Under the pieces are notes generated by a model. That model was not told the origin of the DNA, did no database searches, and worked only from the letters and a program-made list of their open reading frames with translations. A DNA stretch of 64,000 nt from Enterobacter sp. JUb54 (lineage in GTDB: Bacteria > Pseudomonadota > Gammaproteobacteria > Enterobacterales > Enterobacteriaceae). Made by a program: the position numbers and the translations under genes. The stretch covers positions 3,100,001 to 3,164,000 of the forward strand of contig NZ_CP060418.1 of assembly GCF_014298075.1 (NCBI RefSeq), given 5' to 3'. The first letter of the stretch is position 1. Each line of letters begins with the position of its first letter. Below, piece by piece: positions 2,984 through 15,169 of this stretch.

Positions 2984-3436
2984 ATGTCAACACCTATTTA
3001 TCAGTGGAATATAAACTTGAACATATCTCAACTAATCCGTATAGCACCTCTGACCATCATTTTATTGGTTGGTTGTAATACAAACCCATCCCGACAATCC
3101 GCCAGAGTGATAACGCCCTCATCAGAGGCAACATTAAACCAATCACAAGCCCAACAGAAACCCGTGGAACTTGAACAAGAGCGAATTGATTCCTGCCGCG
3201 AAGCATTGGAATCACTAAAAGAAGTTAATCCCAAGCAAGGGGAATTACTTGGGAATAACTTTACCGCTTTAATCGGTGCAGCATCACAATATAATTCTGT
3301 GCGCGGTAAGGTTGCTGAACCGACCAGGCAAGGGATTGACTCAATGTATCAGTTCAAGTCAATCAAACTGTGTGCTGACATTGAAAAAGAGCTAATAGAT
3401 AGCCTTGTCAAACGTGGTGAAAACATTCCCTTATGA
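2984..3436 (+). CDS. Predicted lipoprotein of unknown family
   Basis: 150 residues, family not recognised. Seen: a hydrophobic segment (IAPLTIILLVGC) ends in a lipobox with Cys31 as the acylation site. The +2 residue is Asn rather than Asp, so outer-membrane sorting by Lol is expected. A Gln/Pro-rich linker (about 40-65) follows, then a helical domain with two cysteines (Cys71, Cys130) that could be disulfide-bonded. The N-terminal 18 residues before the hydrophobic core are long for a lipoprotein signal, and no good ribosome site precedes the ATG, so the true start may be downstream. The stop overlaps the next gene by 4 bases (ATGA), so the two are probably translated together. AT-rich compared with flanking core genes, suggesting acquisition. 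Confidence 0.75.
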   Translation: MSTPIYQWNINLNISQLIRIAPLTIILLVGCNTNPSRQSARVITPSSEATLNQSQAQQKPVELEQERIDSCREALESLKEVNPKQGELLGNNFTALIGAASQYNSVRGKVAEPTRQGIDSMYQFKSIKLCADIEKELIDSLVKRGENIPL

Positions 3437-5142
3437 ACCGACTAACAGCCATCAATCTCAAAGTGATAGCGCTGGCGATGACTCCCGTGCTGGCATCATT
3501 TTTAGTGCCTAATGCCTATGCAGAAAAAGATGTCACAACTGGGGTCGTTCCCCGCTCTGACAGTGACAATTCGGGGCCCGCCTTTCTTATTTTTGCTAAG
3601 CAGCAACAGGAAAAAGAAAAGGAAAAAAAATCAGCTGACAGATCGATTGAACATAAAACCAGTGAAACCAACAGTAATACTACAAGAACCACTAATAATA
3701 CACCCACACAGAAAACAAAAAACATTTCACAGCAGAATGCAGTCATTGCTCAGAAAGATAAAATAATACGTCAACTCAAGAAGCAACTTGCCACCAGGCC
3801 ATCTGAGATGATACCTGTCGCTGATAATCAAAAAGAACTTACTGATAAAATTAAGCAATTGCAGGGTAAATTAGAGACTGCGCTGGCAGAAAAGCAGCAA
3901 CTAATAATAAAAGAAAGCACAGCGGTCAATGATAAGAAACAGAGTAACCTTAAGCTTGATGCCACTGAAAATAAAAATCAGAAACAGTCTATAGCCCTGG
4001 CTGCTGTTGAGGCGGAAAAACAAAAGCTTGAAGCTCTGCTGGCCAAAACCGAAGTTGAAAAACAAACGCAGATTAAGAAATTCGCAACTCTGACGTCAGA
4101 TCAGCAAGCTCTGACGCTAAAACTCGCGACTGAGGCGCAAGAAAAACAGCTCCTCGCCGAGAAAATCACGAACGCCACGGCACAAACACAAACGCTCACC
4201 GAAAAACTTAACACTGCAACGGCAGCTCAGCAGACACTAACGGCACAGCTCAGCACTGCGACAGCGGAAAAAAAAGAGTTGATGGCTAAGCTAACGACCG
4301 CAGAGTTAGGATCGCAGGTCCTCACGGCAAAACTTGATGCATTTGTTATTAATAAAAAAAAGGTGGCGCAAGAGGATGAAGCCTTTCGGCTTCAGGTCGA
4401 TAAAGATAAAGCGCTCCTGCAAGCCAAAACGGATGAGCTTAACCAGTTAAAGGCAGCGCAGGCAAATGCCAAACCGGATAAAAAATCTGCGGGAATCGAT
4501 CTCACACAAAAGTCTCAGCAGCAAGCTTACGCTCTGGGTGCCTCTATGGGTGATGGTGCCCTGGAAATACTGGCTATGCGTAATACCCAGGGCATGAAAA
4601 TCAATCAAGATGTGGTACTGCAAGGTTTCGCTGATTCTTTCTCTGGAAAGTTTGCTCTTGATGAAAGCACACGTAAAACAGCGCTGATTGATGCGACAAA
4701 AGAAGTCTCTTTGATTCAAAATAAGGTAGAAAAACAAAACATTAGCGACGGAAAAGCCTATCAGCAGAAGTTTGCTAAACAAAAAGGGGTCGAGTTTAAA
4801 AACGGTATCTACAGCCGCGTTGATTATGCAGGTAAGGGCAAGATTCTCGGCAGTGATATCGTCACGGTAACAATCAAGGAAGCACTTATCGATGGAACCA
4901 TCATTCAAGACATGGAAGCAGAGAAAAAAGTCTGGTCGCAGGTATTAAATGCCTATCCACCATCGCTCCTCGAACCCATGAAACGCCTGGAAAACCATGG
5001 CACTGTTACCATCGTGCTCCCTCCCGATGCCGCTTACGGTAGCGAAGGCGTTCCACCCAAAATTCCGCCCGGCGCCACCATGGTCTATACGGTCAGAATA
5101 GTTGATGCCACTGCCGAAAAACCACCAGCCAACAAGCCCTGA
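3433..5142 (+). CDS. Exported coiled-coil protein with degenerate FKBP-type domain
   Basis: 569 residues. Signal peptide ends at AYA (residue 30). Residues 31-100 are polar and low-complexity (KEKEKKS, Thr/Asn-rich). Residues 100-345 form a long coiled coil with repeated TAT/AEKQxL-L heptads. Residues 363-435 match the FKBP N-terminal dimerisation domain (QQAYALGASMG...), and 455-558 match the FKBP C-terminal domain, with AAYGSEGVPPKIPPGATMVY well kept. The Phe/Asp and Val-Ile-x-x-Trp positions that line the prolyl isomerase pocket in FkpA-type proteins are not recognisable (IIQDME and NAYPPSL instead), so catalysis is doubtful and a chaperone or scaffold role is more likely. Translationally coupled to the lipoprotein upstream. 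No equivalent lies here in E. coli K-12. Exact family unknown to me. Confidence 0.82.
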   Translation: MNRLTAINLKVIALAMTPVLASFLVPNAYAEKDVTTGVVPRSDSDNSGPAFLIFAKQQQEKEKEKKSADRSIEHKTSETNSNTTRTTNNTPTQKTKNISQQNAVIAQKDKIIRQLKKQLATRPSEMIPVADNQKELTDKIKQLQGKLETALAEKQQLIIKESTAVNDKKQSNLKLDATENKNQKQSIALAAVEAEKQKLEALLAKTEVEKQTQIKKFATLTSDQQALTLKLATEAQEKQLLAEKITNATAQTQTLTEKLNTATAAQQTLTAQLSTATAEKKELMAKLTTAELGSQVLTAKLDAFVINKKKVAQEDEAFRLQVDKDKALLQAKTDELNQLKAAQANAKPDKKSAGIDLTQKSQQQAYALGASMGDGALEILAMRNTQGMKINQDVVLQGFADSFSGKFALDESTRKTALIDATKEVSLIQNKVEKQNISDGKAYQQKFAKQKGVEFKNGIYSRVDYAGKGKILGSDIVTVTIKEALIDGTIIQDMEAEKKVWSQVLNAYPPSLLEPMKRLENHGTVTIVLPPDAAYGSEGVPPKIPPGATMVYTVRIVDATAEKPPANKP

Positions 5143-5147
5143 GCCCG

Positions 5148-5174
5148 ACGCCTCCTGATAATGGAGGCGTTTTG
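5148..5174 (+). terminator. Rho-independent terminator after the FKBP-like gene
   Basis: Perfect stem ACGCCTCC/GGAGGCGT (5148-5155 with 5163-5170) and a TTTT tail at 5170-5173. It ends the two-gene unit and separates it from speE. Confidence 0.8.
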
Positions 5175-5296
5175 CGTAGGGTACTCCCCTGACTTACACT
5201 GCTGAAATACCAACCGTGCATCCTCATCTATAGTTGGCTATGATGTTGCGCTTATTTCTACAGGCGTAACGGGTGTTAACAACGGAGGATCTGCCA

Positions 5297-6166
5297 GTGG
5301 CCGATAGCAATCTGTGGCATGAAACGCTGCACGACCATTTTGGTCAGTACTTTGCAGTTGATAAGGTGCTGTACCACGAAAAAACCGATCACCAGGATTT
5401 GATCATTTTTGAGAACGCCGCCTTTGGCCGCGTGATGGCGCTGGACGGCGTGGTACAAACCACCGAACGCGATGAGTTTATCTATCACGAGATGATGACC
5501 CATGTGCCCCTGATGGCCCACGGCCAGGCAAAACATGTGCTCATTATCGGCGGTGGCGACGGTGCCATGCTGCGTGAAGTGTCTCGCCACAGCACCATCG
5601 AAACCATCACCATGGTGGAAATTGACGCCGGTGTGGTCTCGTTCTGCCGCCAGTACCTGCCTAATCACAGCGCAGGCGCGTACGACGATCCGCGGTTTAC
5701 GCTGGTAATTGACGATGGCGTCAATTTTGTTAACCAGACGACGCAAACGTTTGACGTGATCATCTCCGACTGTACCGACCCCATCGGTCCCGGTGAAAGC
5801 CTGTTCACCTCCGCCTTTTACGAAGGCTGTAAGCGCTGCCTCAACCCTGGCGGCATTTTTGTTGCCCAGAACGGCGTCTGCTTCCTGCAACAGGATGAAG
5901 CCCTCGATAGTCACCGCAAGCTTAGCCACTACTTCAGCGATGTCAGCTTCTATCAGGCCGCCATCCCGACCTACTATGGCGGCATTATGACCTTCGCCTG
6001 GGCGACGGATAACGACGCCTTGCGCCACCTGTCCAATGAGATTATCCAGGCGCGTTTTCACAAAACGAATCTGAAGTGTCGTTACTACAATCCGGCGATT
6101 CATAAGGCGGCCTTCGCCTTGCCGCAATATCTGCTGGATACGCTGGCTGCCAGCGAACTTAAGTAA
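5297..6166 (+). CDS. speE: Spermidine synthase
   Basis: 289 residues from a GTG start. Transfers the aminopropyl group of decarboxylated S-adenosylmethionine to putrescine in the cytosol. The [11 protein letters not shown] loop (about residue 85) binds the nucleotide substrate, and the DCTDPIGPG segment (about 158-166) carries the catalytic aspartates; YHEKTD and YYGG are also family hallmarks. The frame is open from 5273, but GTG 5297 has GGAGGA seven bases upstream and matches the length of E. coli SpeE (288). speD follows after 14 bases, so the two form the usual speED operon: SpeD supplies the aminopropyl donor that SpeE uses. Confidence 0.97.
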
Positions 6167-6180
6167 GGGGGTGAACGAAA

Positions 6181-6975
6181 TTGAAAAAACTGAAGCTGCA
6201 TGGCTTTAACAACCTCACCAAGAGCCTGAGTTTTTGCATCTACGATATCTGCTATGCCAAAACGGCAGAGGAGCGCGATGGTTACATTGCCTATATCGAT
6301 GAACTCTATAACGCCAACCGCCTGACCGAAATATTGTCAGAGACCTGCTCGATTATCGGCGCCAACATTCTGAACATCGCGCGTCAGGATTATGAACCTC
6401 AGGGTGCCAGCGTCACCATTCTGGTCAGTGAAGAGCCCATTGACCCACAGCTTATCGATCAGACCGAGCATCCGGGCCCGCTGCCAAGCGCCGTGGTTGC
6501 CCATCTTGATAAAAGCCATATCTGCGTGCACACCTACCCGGAAAGCCACCCGGAAGGCGGGCTATGTACCTTCCGCGCCGATATTGAAGTGTCGACCTGC
6601 GGGGTGATCTCGCCGCTTAACGCGCTGAATTATCTGATTCATCAACTTGAATCTGACATCGTGACTATTGATTATCGCGTTCGCGGTTTTACCCGAGATA
6701 TCAATGGAATGAAGCACTTCATCGATCATGAAATCAATTCAATTCAGAATTTCATGTCCGACGATATGAAAGCGCTGTATGACATGGTGGATGTTAACGT
6801 CTATCAGGAAAACATCTTCCACACCAAGATGCTGCTGAAAGAGTTCGATCTGAAGCACTACATGTTCCACACCCGGCCAGAAGACCTGACCGAGGAAGAG
6901 CGCAAGACCATTACCAGCCTGCTGTGGAAAGAGATGCGCGAAATCTACTACGCCAGAAATATCCCGGGTATCTGA
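6181..6975 (+). CDS. speD: S-adenosylmethionine decarboxylase proenzyme
   Basis: 264 residues, the same length as E. coli SpeD, from a TTG start preceded by AAGGGGGTGA (E. coli speD also starts with TTG). The proenzyme cleaves itself at Lys111-Ser112 (seen in [16 protein letters not shown]) and Ser112 becomes the pyruvoyl cofactor. The [11 protein letters not shown] segment with the active-site cysteine is intact. It makes decarboxylated SAM for the neighbouring SpeE. The class is the long bacterial SpeD (type 1A) rather than the short archaeal or Bacillus SpeH form. Confidence 0.97.
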
Positions 6976-6982
6976 GCTGATG

Positions 6983-7002
6983 ACAGCGCTCGCGGGCGCT
7001 GT
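6983..7002. terminator. Hairpin between convergent speD and the DeoR-type regulator
   Basis: Stem ACAGCGC/GCGCTGT (6983-6989 with 6996-7002) directly after speD and touching the stop codon of the opposite gene. No T-run follows on either strand, so termination activity is only plausible. Confidence 0.4.
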
Positions 7003-7769
7003 TACTCCGGCTGAACCAGTTTGAGAGGCACCTGCTGCCCTTTTAGCATGCTTTGTACTGACTGCGGCAGATTGGCGTCCGTCACCACCTCGCTAAAGTC
7101 AGCCAGCGGCGCTACGGTAAATAGCGAATGTGCGCCGTATTTGCTGCTGTCTGCCAGCAGCACCTTGCACTGGGCATTAGCAATGATTTCCTGCTTCAGT
7201 CCGGCTTTCTCTTCCGTCGGCGTTGTGACACCGGTTTCCGCGCTCCATGAGTTACAGCTCATAAACGCGATATCAGGGAAAACGCTGCGCAACATTTTGC
7301 GGCCATACTCACCGATACAAGACTGGCTGCTGTCGTCGATTCGCCCACCCACAATGGTCACTTCGATTTGCCTGAATTCAGATAAAAACAGGGCGATGTG
7401 CAAATCCACGGTAATCACCCGCAGTGGCAAATGCGTTAAGCACTTCGCCAGTTCGAGCATGGTGGTCCCGGCATCCAGCACCACGGCATCTCCGGGATGC
7501 ACCAAAGAAGCGGCATAGCGCGCGATCGCCCTTTTTTCGCCGGGCGATCGTAACTGCTTTTCATTCGTAGTCGGCTGCACTGGCTCAAAGCGACGTAGCG
7601 CAACGCCGCCATGGCTGCGGCTGATAACGCCCTGCTCATCCAGCTTTATTAAATCACGTCGGATCGTCGCCGCAGACGCATCTACCGCCTCAACCAGTTG
7701 CTCTACCGTAACCAGCGTATGGCTTTTCAGATACGCGACGATTTTATCCAGACGGTGTTGTCCTTTCAT
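7002..7769 (-). CDS. DeoR-family transcriptional regulator of the D-threonate-type operon
   Basis: 255 residues. N-terminal winged helix-turn-helix of the DeoR type ([28 protein letters not shown] then [13 protein letters not shown], residues 5-48) with the family's RDL-x-LD-x-G-x-x-x-R-x-HGG run. The C-terminal sugar-phosphate-sensing domain has [16 protein letters not shown] (about residues 95-110). Last gene of a minus-strand operon kdgT-like, DUF1537 kinase, pdxA2, regulator; starts 9 bases after the pdxA2 stop. DeoR proteins usually repress their own operon until a phosphorylated intermediate accumulates; here that would be a 4-phospho acid sugar (inference). Resembles E. coli YgbI, which flanks a comparable cluster. 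Confidence 0.88.
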
Positions 7770-7778
7770 AACAGGGAA

Positions 7779-8762
7779 TTACGCCAGTTGCATTGCCAGT
7801 TTTATCGATATCGCCATGCTCTCAGATTTTGCTTTTCCCGTCCAGGCGATATCAAAAGCAGTCCCGTGATCGGCTGAAGTGCGGATAAACGGCAGGCCGG
7901 CCGTGATATTGACACCGTCATAGAAGCCCAATAATTTCAAAGGGATATGCCCCTGATCGTGATACATTGCGACCACCATATCGTACTGCCCTTCATAAGC
8001 CTGCAGAAACACGGTATCGGGTGGACAGGGTCCGAACACCGCTATCCCTTTGGCCTTTGCATGTGCAATCGCCGGCGCCAGGAAACGTCCCTCTTCGTCG
8101 CCAAACAGACCGTTTTCTCCGGCATGAGGGTTCACCCCGGCAACAGCAATTCTCGGCTGCTGGTAACCAACGCGTTTCAGGAAGGTATCCGCAATATCAA
8201 TGACCGTCTCGACACGCGGCGTATTCAGCGTATCAAGGAATTTACGCAGCGCAATATGGGTCGAGACATGGATGACTTTCAGCTTTTCCGTAAATAACAC
8301 CATCGCGTAGTCGCGCGTCTCTGTCAGCGTAGCCAGCAGTTCGGTGTGTCCCGGATAATGGTGCCCGGCGAGATGCAGCGCCTCTTTATTTAACGGCGCG
8401 GTCGCTATCGCGTGGACATCGCCCTTCAGCGCCAGCGTCGTCGCGCGCTTCACACAGCGATAAGCCAGATCGCCTGCCTGCGCCTGCACCTTACCAATTT
8501 CAAGCGCCTGCGGATCGGCCAGAGGTTCATCGATCACATGGATCACTCCAGGCGTAAAGCGAGCCGCCGCCACGTCGTCGATAACGCAGAACTCAACGCC
8601 CTCTGCCAGACCTTTCTCCTGCAGTCGCTTCAGCGTCTGGAAACAGCCTACTACCACTACCGGTGCGCCATTTAACCGATCTTCGCTGAGCGCCTTAACG
8701 ATAATTTCCGGCCCAATCCCTGCCGGATCTCCCATTGTAATTGCCACAGTCTTAATGCCCAC
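7779..8762 (-). CDS. pdxA2: PdxA2-type D-threonate/D-erythronate 4-phosphate dehydrogenase
   Basis: 327 residues from a GTG start with GAGGAG ahead, the same length as Salmonella PdxA2. PdxA-family oxidative decarboxylase: the metal-binding histidines are present (STH about 169, NPH about 213, YHDQGH about 268), as are TMGDPAGIGPE and PLNKEAL. Linkage with a DUF1537 kinase and a KdgT-like permease, and not with ksgA/surA, shows it is the catabolic paralogue rather than the vitamin B6 enzyme PdxA. Known for this set: phosphorylated D-threonate is oxidised and decarboxylated to dihydroxyacetone phosphate. It overlaps the kinase stop by 11 bases. The longer open frame to 8816 is unlikely to be used. 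Confidence 0.92.
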   Translation of the reverse strand: MGIKTVAITMGDPAGIGPEIIVKALSEDRLNGAPVVVVGCFQTLKRLQEKGLAEGVEFCVIDDVAAARFTPGVIHVIDEPLADPQALEIGKVQAQAGDLAYRCVKRATTLALKGDVHAIATAPLNKEALHLAGHHYPGHTELLATLTETRDYAMVLFTEKLKVIHVSTHIALRKFLDTLNTPRVETVIDIADTFLKRVGYQQPRIAVAGVNPHAGENGLFGDEEGRFLAPAIAHAKAKGIAVFGPCPPDTVFLQAYEGQYDMVVAMYHDQGHIPLKLLGFYDGVNITAGLPFIRTSADHGTAFDIAWTGKAKSESMAISIKLAMQLA

Positions 8763-10023
8763 AGTACATCTCCTCAATAAAATAAAGCGCATCGCACAAC
8801 GTACGATCGGAGCCAAATCCCCCAGCCTTGGTGATCACCGGTAGATCGTCGATATCACTGTTAATAAACGTGCCGCAGGGAATACAGGGCGCGACTTCGC
8901 TCTGAATCCGATAACCTTCAGCACCCAGTGCGCTGGCGACGGCAGTGGCCATATCCCCTCCCGTCAAAAACAGGCCGCCGATGCGTGCCTGCTCAAGGAT
9001 CTTTAACGTTATCTCTCCCACATGCAGACTCAGCGTCTCGCCCAACTGCTGGCGGCTCATGCCGGTAGTGGCACACAGAGTATCAATGCCCTGTCGGTCC
9101 TCCATCCGGCGGCTGGTGCGCAGGATCGTATGCCGCTGTCGGCTCAGGAGCGCGCAGGCTTGTTCCACTACCGCGGCCATCTCCTGGGTGCAGAAGGGCG
9201 ACACCAGGCGAGAGACATCGATGTCCACGATCTCTGCTCGCCCCTGGCTGAGCGCATAGTCAACCTGTCGGCGCGTCGCTTCACTCATCGATCCCGCCAC
9301 CACCAGCACGGGCAGTGCCAGCTTATCCTGTTTAAACATCCAGCCAGGCAACGCATTCGCCAGCCCGGCCGCCCCCACCATCAGCGGTATCTGGGTTTGT
9401 TCACAGATCGCATGCGCAATCAGTGTCAAATCCCGATCTTCCAGTGTATCGACCACAACCATGCACTCGCCTTCCGCGGCCCATGCCTCCAGCAGCGCAC
9501 TGAGCCGCCCGCGACGAAGCTCCTCCAGATGGACTTCATGAACAGTGATCTGGCTTTGCAACGCGATCAGCTCGGCAATGCGAGAAGAGATAATCGGCGT
9601 TTTGGGATCGCTGGCGAATTCGGTATCCACAAGCGGGATACCGTTAACCAGGCACTGGCCATCCCGCGTCGTGCGCCCGGCAGCAGGGATCGCGGCGGCA
9701 ATGACCGCGAGACGTCTGCGACTGGCTTTCATTGCCGCAGCCACTTCGGCCCCCACGTTGCCCCGAAAAGTAGAATCAATCTTTTTGTACACCAGCGGTG
9801 CGTCTGGTGTATCACACCAGGGAGCCAGCGCCGTCTGAACCATGTCTACGGCTTGTGGGGCCGGCAACGCCCGGCTTTCAGTGTTAATAACCAGCACATC
9901 GGCACGGCGGGAAGGCTTCTGGGCCGCACTTAGCATCACTTCCGTCCGCGCGCCTTTTTTCGCCAGCTGGACCCCGGTATCATTGGATCCGGTAAAATCA
10001 TCAGCGATAACGATCATTTTCAT
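8752..10023 (-). CDS. dtnK: DUF1537-family four-carbon acid sugar kinase (D-threonate kinase type)
   Basis: 423 residues. N-terminal DUF1537 signature [19 protein letters not shown] (residues 5-23), a central [15 protein letters not shown] substrate segment, and the C-terminal nucleotide-binding glycine-rich part [19 protein letters not shown]. Phosphorylates a four-carbon sugar acid, D-threonate in the characterised Salmonella-type cluster, for the PdxA2 enzyme encoded next. The start overlaps the permease stop (ATGA), so translation is coupled. Substrate could instead be D-erythronate or a relative: DUF1537 sequence alone does not fix it, and the symbol rests on the cluster. Confidence 0.87.
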
Positions 10024-11654: not shown

Positions 11655-12383
11655 TCAACTGCCGAGCATGATTCCACCATCGATCGCCAGATGCTGGCCG
11701 GTGATAAAGGTATTTTGCAGTAAGAACAGATAGGCGCCGGCCAGCTCATCAATGGTCGCGGTACGTCCCAACGGGATCGTCCCGGCAAAACGCAGCCGGG
11801 TTGCTTCCAGCTGTTCGGCAGGCATATCGCGCCAGAACGGCGTGATGGTCCAGGTCGGCGAGACGGCGTTAACCCGCGCGCGCGGAGCCAGCTCTACCGC
11901 CAGCCCCTCAACCAGCGCATTAATGCCAAAGTTGCCGACGTAGCTGGCACAGGCATCCTGGGCACGCCCGCCGGTGCCGGAAGTGAAGATCAGGCTGCCG
12001 CCGGTATTCAGTTTCTCCGCCGCCAGCTGGCCAATTTTCACATTGGTGAAGAACTTCGACTCCATGACATGGCGAATTGTGGACAGTGATGCAGACAGAA
12101 AACCACCGCCCATCACATCGCCAACCATCGAAATGAGGTGATCGATGTTTGGCAACGCGGCAAACAATGCCTCCAGCGCCTGATGATCGTGCGCATCCAC
12201 GGCATACGTCTCAACCGTCGCTCCCGCCGAGGTCAGACTCATTTTCGCCTCGGCAAGACGTCCGGCATGACGCCCAATCACGATCAGATTAGCCCCGGCC
12301 TCCGCCGCAAGCTGCGCAACTCGAAAACCGATCCCCGAGCTGCCGCCGATAATAGCCACTGTCTGATGTTGTAACGAAACCAT
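11655..12383 (-). CDS. Short-chain dehydrogenase/reductase family protein with atypical active site
   Basis: 242 residues, Rossmann fold. The nucleotide-binding motif is GGSSGIGFRVAQ (residues 12-23) with IVIGRH at the end of strand beta-2, so NADP(H) is possible. The Ser of the triad is seen in IFTSGTGG, and a Tyr in ASYVGNFGINAL, but the usual YxxxK reads YVGNF: the catalytic Lys is replaced by Phe. The C-terminus VNAVSPTW and ITGQHLAIDGG is standard. Start at ATG 12383 has AGGAGAGA upstream; the open frame to 12443 lacks this. Isolated between yacL and acnB. Substrate unknown; either an atypical SDR or a non-enzymatic relative. Confidence 0.85.
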   Translation of the reverse strand: MVSLQHQTVAIIGGSSGIGFRVAQLAAEAGANLIVIGRHAGRLAEAKMSLTSAGATVETYAVDAHDHQALEALFAALPNIDHLISMVGDVMGGGFLSASLSTIRHVMESKFFTNVKIGQLAAEKLNTGGSLIFTSGTGGRAQDACASYVGNFGINALVEGLAVELAPRARVNAVSPTWTITPFWRDMPAEQLEATRLRFAGTIPLGRTATIDELAGAYLFLLQNTFITGQHLAIDGGIMLGS

Positions 12384-12526
12384 ATCTCTCTCCTTCCTGT
12401 CTGGGAATTCAGGACCTGTCGATACATTGAGATGTTCTGACACGGCGTGATACAGGAGAGGTTAAGGAATCGCCTGGCGGCAGTAATAGACATTTGATGC
12501 GCTTAACGCAACAGGTAACGCAGCAA

Positions 12527-12557
12527 CAAAAAAGCCACCCCGAAGAGTGGCTTTGAG
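12527..12557 (-). terminator. Terminator of acnB
   Basis: On the minus strand a GCCAC-x-loop-x-GTGGC stem (about 12534-12554) followed by six T residues (complement of 12528-12533), directly after the acnB stop. Confidence 0.85.
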
Positions 12558-12571
12558 CAAGCAAGATTCGC

Positions 12572-15169
12572 TTATACCGCCGTCTGGAAAATCACACCGT
12601 CAGCTTTCTCGGTGTACTCTTCCAGCTGGTTGAAGTTCAGATAACGATAGGTATCCGCCGCGGTCTTATCCACCTGGGCGACGAAGGTCTGATACTCTTC
12701 CGGCGTCGGCAGCTTGCCGAGCAGAGAAGCGACCGCCGCCAGCTCAGCAGAAGCCAGATAGACGTTAGCGCCGGTACCTAAACGGTTCGGGAAGTTACGG
12801 GTTGAGGTGGATACCACCGTCGCGCCATCAGCAACACGCGCCTGGTTACCCATACACAGGGAACAGCCAGGGATTTCGATACGCGCACCGCTCTTACCAA
12901 ACACGCTGTAGTAACCTTCTTCAGTCAGCTGCGCCGCATCCATACGGGTTGGCGGAGCCACCCACAGACGGGTTGGCAGCTGGCCTTTATGGCTATCAAG
13001 CAGTTTACCTGCCGCGCGGAAGTGACCGATGTTGGTCATGCAGGAACCGATAAACACTTCATCGATTTTTTCACCCTGCACGTCGGACAGCAGACGAGCA
13101 TCGTCAGGATCGTTCGGTGCACAAAGGATCGGCTCTTTGATATCAGCCAGATCGATTTCGATCACCGCAGCATATTCAGCATCGGCATCCGCTTCCATCA
13201 GTTGCGGATCCGCCAGCCATTTTTCCATGCCCTGGATACGACGTTCCAGCGTACGACGGTCGCCATAACCACCAGCAATCATCCACTTCAGCAGCACGAT
13301 GTTGGAGTTCAGGTACTCAACGATCGGCTCCTGGTTCAGCTTGATGGTACAGCCTGCTGCAGAACGTTCTGCGGAAGCATCGGTCAGCTCAAACGCCTGC
13401 TCAACTTTCAGATCCGGCAGACCTTCGATTTCCAGAATGCGGCCAGAGAAGATGTTTTTCTTACCTTTCTTCTCAACGGTCAGCAGGCCCTGCTTAATCG
13501 CATACAGCGGGATCGCATGGACCAGATCGCGCAGGGTGATCCCCGGCTGCATCTTGCCTTTAAAGCGCACCAGTACCGATTCCGGCATATCCAGCGGCAT
13601 CACGCCGGTCGCCGCGGCAAACGCCACCAGGCCAGAACCCGCCGGGAAGGAGATACCAATCGGGAAACGGGTATGAGAGTCACCACCGGTACCAACGGTA
13701 TCCGGCAGCAGCATACGGTTCAGCCAGGAGTGAATAACCCCATCGCCCGGACGCAGAGAAACACCGCCACGGTTCATGATGAAGTCTGGCAGCGTGTGGT
13801 GCGTGGTCACGTCAACCGGCTTCGGATAGGCTGCGGTGTGGCAGAAGGACTGCATCACCAGATCGGCAGAGAAGCCAAGGCACGCCAGGTCTTTCAGTTC
13901 GTCACGGGTCATCGGACCGGTGGTGTCCTGAGAACCAACGGAGGTCATCTTCGGCTCGCAGTATGCGCCAGGGCGAATACCGGCAACGCCGCATGCGCGA
14001 CCGACCATTTTCTGGGCCAGCGAGTAACCACGGCTGCTTTCAGCAACATCTTTCGCATGACGGAAGACATCGCTGTGCGGCAGACCCAGGGCTTCACGTG
14101 CACGAGTCGTCAGGCCACGGCCGATAATCAGCGGAATACGGCCACCGGCGCGGACTTCGTCGATCAGCACGTCAGTTTTCAGCTCAAAGGTCGCCAGCAG
14201 CGCATCGGTGTCGTGGTTGCGGACTTCGCCTTTGAACGGGTAAACGTCGATAACGTCGCCCATGTTCAGGTCATTGACGTCGACTTCAATCGGCAGTGCG
14301 CCAGCATCTTCCATGGTGTTGAAGAAGATCGGCGCGATTTTACCGCCCAGCACCAGGCCGCCGCCGCGCTTGTTAGGCACGTTCGGGATATCGTCACCCA
14401 TAAACCACAGCACCGAGTTGGTCGCGGATTTACGGGAAGAACCAGTACCGACGACGTCACCGACGTAGGCCAGCGGGAAACCTTTCTGCTGAAGCGCTTC
14501 AATTTGCTTAATCGGGCCAACTGAACCCGGCTGATCCGGCTCGATACCTTCACGGGCGTTTTTCAGCATCGCCAGGGCGTGCAGCGGGATATCCGGACGA
14601 GACCAGGCATCTGGCGCCGGCGAGAGGTCATCGGTGTTGGTTTCACCGGTCACCTTGAAAACGGTAACGGTAATTTTTTCAGCCAGCTTCGGACGGCTCA
14701 GGAACCACTCGGCGTCGGCCCAGGCTTGCATCACCTGCTTCGCGTGCTCATTACCGGCTTTTGCCTTCTCTTCTACATCGTAGAAGTTATCAAACATCAG
14801 CAACGTATGGGTGAGCGCTTTTGCAGCAATCGGTGCCAGTGCGGCATCGTCCAGTGCATCAATCAGCGGGTGAATGTTGTAACCGCCCTGCATGGTGCCC
14901 AGCAGTTCAACGGCTTTTTCAGGAGTGACCAGTGGGGAGGTCGCTTCGCCTTTGGCGATCGCGGCAAGGAATCCGGCTTTAACATAGGCGGCTTCGTCGA
15001 CGCCCGGTGGTACACGGTTGATTAACAGGTCTAACAGGAATTCTTCTTCACCCGCAGGCGGGTTTTTCAGCAGTTCTACCAGCGCGGCCATTTGGGTAGC
15101 ATCTAAGGGTTTTGCAACAATCCCAACGGCTGCACGCTCAGCTACGTGCTTACGGTATTCTTCTAGCAC
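12572..15169 (-). CDS. acnB: Bifunctional aconitate hydratase 2 / 2-methylisocitrate dehydratase
   Basis: 865 residues, the E. coli AcnB length. TCA-cycle enzyme that isomerises citrate to isocitrate with a [4Fe-4S] cluster; also hydrates 2-methylaconitate in the methylcitrate cycle. The cluster cysteines are visible in [12 protein letters not shown] and [10 protein letters not shown]. The N-terminal HEAT-like domain and the swivel domain precede the catalytic domains, the order typical of AcnB and different from AcnA. Start: GTG 15169 has GAGGAG eight bases upstream and yields [11 protein letters not shown] as in E. coli; the open frame to 15274 lacks support. Monocistronic, with its own terminator. 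In E. coli it is controlled by Cra, CRP and ArcA; cra is also in this window. Confidence 0.97.

Follow-up and report, generated by a model that had tools for sequence, protein, structure and literature searches.

The gene pair and its surroundings

In the 64,000-nucleotide stretch of Enterobacter sp. JUb54 DNA analysed here (the window), two genes were identified on the + strand, at 2984–3436 and 3433–5142. The first encodes a lipoprotein of 150 aa and the second an exported coiled-coil FkpA-like protein of 569 aa, referred to here as the partner, whose start codon lies within a four-base ATGA overlap (3433–3436) with the lipoprotein stop. A sequence-only reading of the same DNA had described two genes joined in this way, and both were recovered as described.

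The pair is preceded by yacC (2264–2650), whose product is a pilotin-like protein of the YacC family (197 bits against a cut-off of 80), and followed by a gene that we take to be speE (5273–6166), with a presumed cueO upstream on the opposite strand. The names cueO, speE and speD are our assumptions from the sequences; in an annotated Klebsiella record at the equivalent site cueO, YacC and speD are named. Both genes of the pair are AT-rich, with GC contents of 41.7% and 45.1% compared to 54.9% for the window, and a stretch of 33.9% GC precedes them. Promoter and terminator scans gave no excess over shuffles. Further along the window, three genes in a row (7002–10023) look like an ordinary sugar-acid catabolic cluster, presumably encoding a DeoR-type regulator, a PdxA-like dehydrogenase and a four-carbon sugar acid kinase.

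The lipoprotein

The lipobox (LVGC) ends at Cys31 (3074–3076, + strand), as had been read from the sequence before, and the next residue is Asn. The residue that follows the lipobox cysteine decides the membrane to which a lipoprotein is sorted, and it was never Asp in the 21 sequences of the lipoprotein profile A1 (18 scored by pattern and the remaining 3 by eye), which fits sorting to the outer membrane. Two more cysteines are conserved, Cys130 (3371–3373, + strand) in all 21 sequences and Cys71 (3194–3196, + strand) in 20, being absent only from that of locus L060; the two probably form a disulfide. The mature part is predicted to fold as a three-helix bundle.

No family in Pfam or NCBIfam matched the lipoprotein over its cut-off, and there was no strong PHROG match; the weak matches were DUF4055 (E 0.0073), phrog_20914 (E 0.017) and LIC10707 (E 0.072), and a profile search of solved structures gave a best E of only 0.054. 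PulS/OutS-type pilotins are small helical lipoproteins with a disulfide that dock a helix of their partner. The resemblance of our lipoprotein to them and to YacC, the product of the neighbouring gene, lies only in how it would work, as the lipoprotein has no PulS_OutS match up to E 1, whereas YacC does, and its three predicted helices gave generic fold matches. A PulS_OutS pilotin by sequence was thus ruled out. Fold searches returned generic bundles, with no pilotin among the matches listed, a result still compatible with a pilotin fold; the alignments behind this and the partner's structure prediction held 9 sequences each.

Architecture of the partner

The partner has a signal-peptide-like start, a long helix and then FKBP_N and FKBP_C domains. 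The AlphaFold2 model, of middling confidence (mean pLDDT 62.5), shows a single helix of 211 residues (133–343; 3829–4461, + strand), predicted as a coiled coil, in addition to short helices at 50–69 and 106–119. The long helix reported earlier was therefore confirmed, although not at the 245 residues given for it. At the start of helix 50–69 lies the motif PAFLIFAK (residues 49–56; 3577–3600, + strand), and we propose that this helix docks the lipoprotein. The motif gave 31 matches, one of which (L126) looks spurious.

The dimerisation-type FKBP_N domain (residues 362–454; 4516–4794, + strand) and the FKBP_C domain (residues 474–556; 4852–5100, + strand) scored 35.9 and 34.4 bits, over the Pfam cut-offs of 22 and 21.1, so that the two domains proposed before were borne out by profile. 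The nearest curated model was FkpA NF008150 (E 8.4e-31), at 107.4 bits under its equivalog cut-off of 215. FkpA (PDB 1q6u) has the same order of FKBP_N and FKBP_C and the same fold, and was the best match of the partner both by sequence (E 1.2e-27) and by Foldseek (E 2.7e-14). Compared to FkpA, the partner has about 350 additional residues at its N-terminus, which include the long coil, and it is encoded together with a lipoprotein. Mip-type FKBPs (LpMIP, PDB 8bjd and 1fd9; Foldseek E 1.8e-12) likewise join a helical N part to an FKBP domain; their stalk helix is shorter than that of the partner and their pocket is intact, and we know of no lipoprotein partner gene for them. Foldseek also matched chain B of 6h3i and 6h3j (E 3.8e-7 and 4.3e-7), the FKBP-like subunit of the type 9 translocon, in which an FKBP fold presumably binds an export pore of the outer membrane. 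That translocon is a system of Bacteroidota, and its FKBP-like subunit has no coil.

Across relatives, the length of the partner ranges from 346 to about 1500 aa, the top values being open frames that, counted from the start codon, give about 1503 aa (L164) and 1429 aa (L135). The L135 protein matched the partner profile at 289 bits; that of L164 is a weak FKBP match (65 bits). The L164 protein (5026–9537) and one of about 1430 aa in L165 (9924–14216; 64 bits to the partner profile) have very long coils, and a Pfam scan of the latter found no FKBP domain. With such a range, a rod that spans the periplasm as a general rule, as suggested before, is unlikely, and a periplasmic ruler of fixed length was ruled out.

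In a comparison of L177 with L178, dN/dS was 0.083 for the lipoprotein, 0.069 for the C-terminal domain of the partner and 0.235 for its coil; several comparisons involving the window were saturated at silent sites. Given these low values and the conservation of both proteins, chance ORFs or relics were rejected. Perhaps the protein is a structural spacer or surface rod, with a mechanical role in the envelope or with its coil exposed on the outside, and the FKBP fold does no more than cap it. The long and variable partners and the faster evolution of the coil would agree with this, but conservation is highest in the C-terminal domain, which carries a family-wide signature that suggests specific binding there, and we regard a spacer as the least probable of the explanations weighed here.

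The FKBP pocket

In FKBP12 numbering, the pocket residues are Y26, F36, D37, R42, V55, I56, W59 and F99. None of the eight is kept in the FKBP_C domain of the window, which has I26, I36, Q37, E42, Y55, P56, L59 and Y99, while Tyr82 is. We compared 73 distinct C-terminal domains (from 87 matches), aligned to the FkpA and FklB of the window genome, and 66 of them had none of the eight: R42 was kept in 5, F36, W59 and F99 in 1 each, and Y26, D37, V55 and I56 in none. Tyr82 was retained in 67. The replacements were regular, with Pro for I56 in 69 domains, Tyr for F99 in 57, Phe for W59 in 55 and Ile for F36 in 53. In contrast, all eight residues were present in 15/15 FkpA controls, picked without a motif filter (loci L023–L036, 14 in number, and the FkpA of the window genome), and likewise in 12/12 FkpA proteins picked by a motif that itself spans two of the tested residues.

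A regular pattern of replacement, together with purifying selection, suggests that the binding site has changed rather than decayed. The family-wide loss of these residues also argues against an ordinary FKBP isomerase, and hence against the FKBP catalysis on a client that had been suggested for this protein; the partner is probably not an isomerase.

Distribution and pairing

Both genes were present in 12 of 20 genus-level genomes. Among the named loci, the pair is hosted by Klebsiella grimontii, K. oxytoca, K. michiganensis, K. spallanzanii and K. pneumoniae and by three Kluyvera, and the 4-base overlap was kept in 8/8. In a set of 11 checked loci (L073–L075 and L177–L184), yacC came before the pair in all 11, and speE followed it in all 8 Klebsiella loci, whereas other genes were found there in the three Kluyvera. 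In K. pneumoniae strain 176 (L082, 6404–9410), the stretch where the partner is expected is annotated with an ISKpn18 transposase and short hypothetical proteins, and the gene table, which is incomplete, lists no speE ahead of speD; related strains carry intact copies.

Among 246 genomes of the taxonomic family, 69 gave a match to the lipoprotein profile (98 hits in all). Outside the family, only G286 and G748 gave matches below E 1e-10 among 247 order-level and 299 phylum-level genomes, sets that contain some members of the family, and no match to the partner profile was found near the lipoprotein relative in either. In G286, an exported protein of 554 aa (L186, 7802–9466) comes after the lipoprotein relative on the same strand, again with no partner-profile match. 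A phage origin was also considered and rejected, with no useful PHROG match and no relative in two scans of viral contigs.

That the two genes would always occur as a pair held for the FKBP protein but not for the lipoprotein. Among 25 coil/FKBP proteins with an open frame of at least 400 aa, from 60 genomes and counted by eye, 24 adjoined the lipoprotein gene; the contig of the 25th ends 136 bases upstream. Independent occurrence of the two genes in most genomes was therefore not seen for the FKBP protein. The 89 lipoprotein matches, on the other hand, comprised 35 with a 4-base overlap, 18 adjacent to the partner without overlap (the overlap is thus found in 35/53 adjacent pairs) and 36 without an adjacent partner, 12 of which have one elsewhere in the stretch; the copies L116, L177–L180 and L182 are omitted from this tally, in which 60 bits was the minimum score for a partner. 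We fetched 69 loci, namely the best 71 of the 98 hits minus the window and G015, so that the weakest 27 hits lie outside the locus counts. An FKBP-like partner was present in 36 of the 45 strong loci (lipoprotein at 100 bits or more), and the 24 loci below 100 bits had a partner in 13 and an usher in 5.

Some lipoprotein relatives that match more weakly or lack a partner have fixed positions on the chromosome, which we take to be next to rpoD and mug (L163, L166, L168 and L169), before prlC (L171 and L172) and before an MFS transporter gene (L067 and L138). The lipoprotein family may have a second role.

The trees of the lipoprotein and the partner agreed over 57 loci (r 0.667, against 0.231 for the best of 2000 shuffles; 0/2000), using the best lipoprotein and the best partner of each locus, adjacent or not. 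The shuffles do not correct for kinship, and as nearly all loci come from one taxonomic family they are not independent. With the lipoprotein beside 24/25 partners and the trees in agreement, the earlier description of a two-gene exported system is upheld, and the two genes are co-inherited.

E. coli K-12 had been said to have nothing at this place. For the window pair this holds at the DNA level, with no match in an E. coli collection in which K-12 was not singled out. Diverged relatives of the FKBP protein, however, occur in 19 of 5,426 E. coli genomes, and every one of these matches covers a fimbrial gene. A 20th match was to a pilin gene only.

Association with chaperone-usher fimbriae

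The sequence-only reading had missed a link to chaperone-usher fimbriae, and the best clue to function is the fimbrial setting of the relatives, which lies outside the window. Pairs were identified inside or beside usher operons in L060–L066 and L068, and fimbrial-cluster relatives on plasmids of Salmonella, E. coli, Serratia, E. albertii and Enterobacter. In two E. coli chromosomes examined, the pair is part of a fimbrial operon, where it follows pilin genes and precedes the final genes of the cluster. Three E. coli clusters run through pilins, usher, chaperone, pilins, FKBP protein, pilin and lipoprotein to PixG or an unnamed protein, one of them with a regulator gene before the lipoprotein. 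The lipoprotein and its partner are separated by pilin, regulator or other genes in the clusters of Salmonella, E. coli, E. albertii and Enterobacter. Close copies of the Pix-like FKBP-pilin-lipoprotein segment (99.1 and 97.9% identity to the query) occur on both the chromosome and a plasmid of E. coli AH19B041 (NZ_CP196316.1 and NZ_CP196317.1), with five matching places in all. The fimbrial cluster of a Salmonella plasmid (L077) carries a second, weaker lipoprotein homologue (12314–12880, 46 bits) in tandem after the first.

The window genome has a second pair (L060, 8178–9943), 3.3 kb from an usher gene with two opposite-strand genes between them. The window pair itself does not share an operon with an usher and a chaperone, as many of its relatives do, and its nearest usher match is about 146 kb away, which counts against a fimbrial role.

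An usher was found within the fetched stretch in 18 of the 45 strong loci, compared to about 2.5 expected from first-look usher counts (at most 5–6 scored per genome) and rounded genome sizes; 17 of the 36 paired strong loci had one, against 1 of the 9 unpaired. Over 27 loci, with one usher per locus that was not always the nearest, tree agreement was 0.73 for lipoprotein and partner, 0.63 for lipoprotein and usher and 0.52 for partner and usher, each with 0/2000 shuffles. Of 13 Klebsiella genomes, the 8 that carry the pair have 9–24 ushers and the 5 that do not have 4–12 (one-sided p 0.003, not corrected for kinship). Ushers were also present in 52/52 genomes with a lipoprotein match below E 1e-13 against 157/246 overall (counted by eye), but small endosymbiont genomes lack both, and this genome-level co-occurrence was not used as evidence.

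LuxR-type regulator matches were found in 16 of the 36 paired strong loci and 2 of the 33 other loci, the genes lying near the pair in L061–L064, L066, L079–L081 and others. Beside the fimbrial cluster of L061 is a regulator (6412–7386) that fuses a LuxR-type (GerE) and a FaeA-like domain. Such neighbours could suggest an envelope sensor, in which the rod reports pilus assembly or surface contact to the regulators. Yet the conserved pair includes no inner-membrane protein and a LuxR match is absent from the stretch in 20/36 paired strong loci, L073 of the window type included; we consider a sensor improbable, if slightly less so than a spacer.

A gene for a PglL-type O-oligosaccharyltransferase was near the pair in 7 of the 36 paired strong loci compared to 1 of the 33 others. 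These genes include L079 (7744–9390), L065 (8806–10641) and L081 (7977–9653), with further matches in L116, L117, L119, L122, L124 and L126. Both PglL-type proteins that were scanned have Wzy_C and Wzy_C_2 domains, and PglL_A was over its cut-off in L065 only. The enzyme may add glycans to the fimbrial subunits or to linkers in the coil protein.

In 15 of the 36 paired strong loci, L073 again among them, no usher, LuxR or PglL match was found in the stretch. Loci of this kind, for example the yacC site and a site with what are presumably folD and cysS, have no recognised fimbrial surroundings and would suit a general FkpA-derived periplasmic holdase that is tethered to the outer membrane and serves many outer-membrane or secreted clients, its presence in fimbrial operons being incidental. 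The closest relative of the partner, in sequence as well as in fold, is FkpA, and the window genome retains an FkpA and an FklB of its own. The enrichment beside ushers and the correlation of the trees with that of the usher speak against such a general holdase, which we consider unlikely, albeit clearly less so than a sensor or a spacer.

The Sef fimbria of Serratia plasmids is described in the main text of PMC10758657, in which the words FKBP, isomerase, coiled and lipoprotein are absent; it mentions sea17 and sea18 genes with unspecified 'regulatory motifs', which may or may not correspond to the pair. A literature search, with subscription journals mostly outside its scope, found no published description or name for the pair, in line with the earlier statement that no named system has this layout.

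Proposed role

We give a probability of about one half to the reading that chaperone-usher fimbriae of enterobacteria have an accessory module, of which the pair is one copy. What we observed is a conserved, co-inherited gene pair, frequently located in or beside fimbrial operons, with replaced pocket residues. The pairs within or beside usher operons, on plasmids and in the two E. coli chromosomes favour this reading, as do the enrichment of ushers, the agreement with the usher tree, the LuxR matches, the pocket replacements and the usher numbers in Klebsiella. Against it stand, besides the distance of the window pair from an usher and the 15 loci with no usher, LuxR or PglL match, the partnerless members of the lipoprotein family, the origin of nearly all loci from one taxonomic family and the fact that unrelated genes often gather in fimbrial operons.

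The best reading of the two proteins is a tethered holdase or scaffold for fimbrial assembly, rather than an isomerase. The lipoprotein, a small helical bundle that is probably disulfide-bonded, would be anchored in the inner leaflet of the outer membrane and would tether the partner, probably through the conserved N-terminal helix of the latter. Dimerisation of the partner may involve both the FkpA-type N domain and the long coil, and the dimer would present two FKBP folds whose pocket appears to be no longer of the isomerase type. These folds could hold or position an exported client, perhaps a fimbrial subunit, a tip adhesin or the usher, without isomerising it. The window copy, distant from any usher, would either act in trans on fimbriae made elsewhere or have changed its client.

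The sequence-only reading was right about the pairing and had found a real system, for which we found no name either, and its overall interpretation is partly supported. We file the pair as a variant derived from FkpA-type periplasmic chaperones, now a fimbria-linked tethered module. More tentatively, and with odds somewhat below even, many enterobacterial chaperone-usher fimbriae may have an unrecognised part, in which a pilotin-like lipoprotein tethers a coiled-coil dimer of variable length whose FKBP fold has turned from an isomerase into a dedicated binder of a fimbrial subunit or adhesin, while free-standing chromosomal copies serve several fimbriae in trans. The general view of chaperone-usher fimbriae is that, apart from the subunits themselves, they require no more than a chaperone and an usher. 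An additional pair that recurs in fimbrial operons and includes a folding helper with a replaced pocket would add a step to the chaperone-usher pathway and would account for a group of proteins that are now annotated, probably wrongly, as isomerases.
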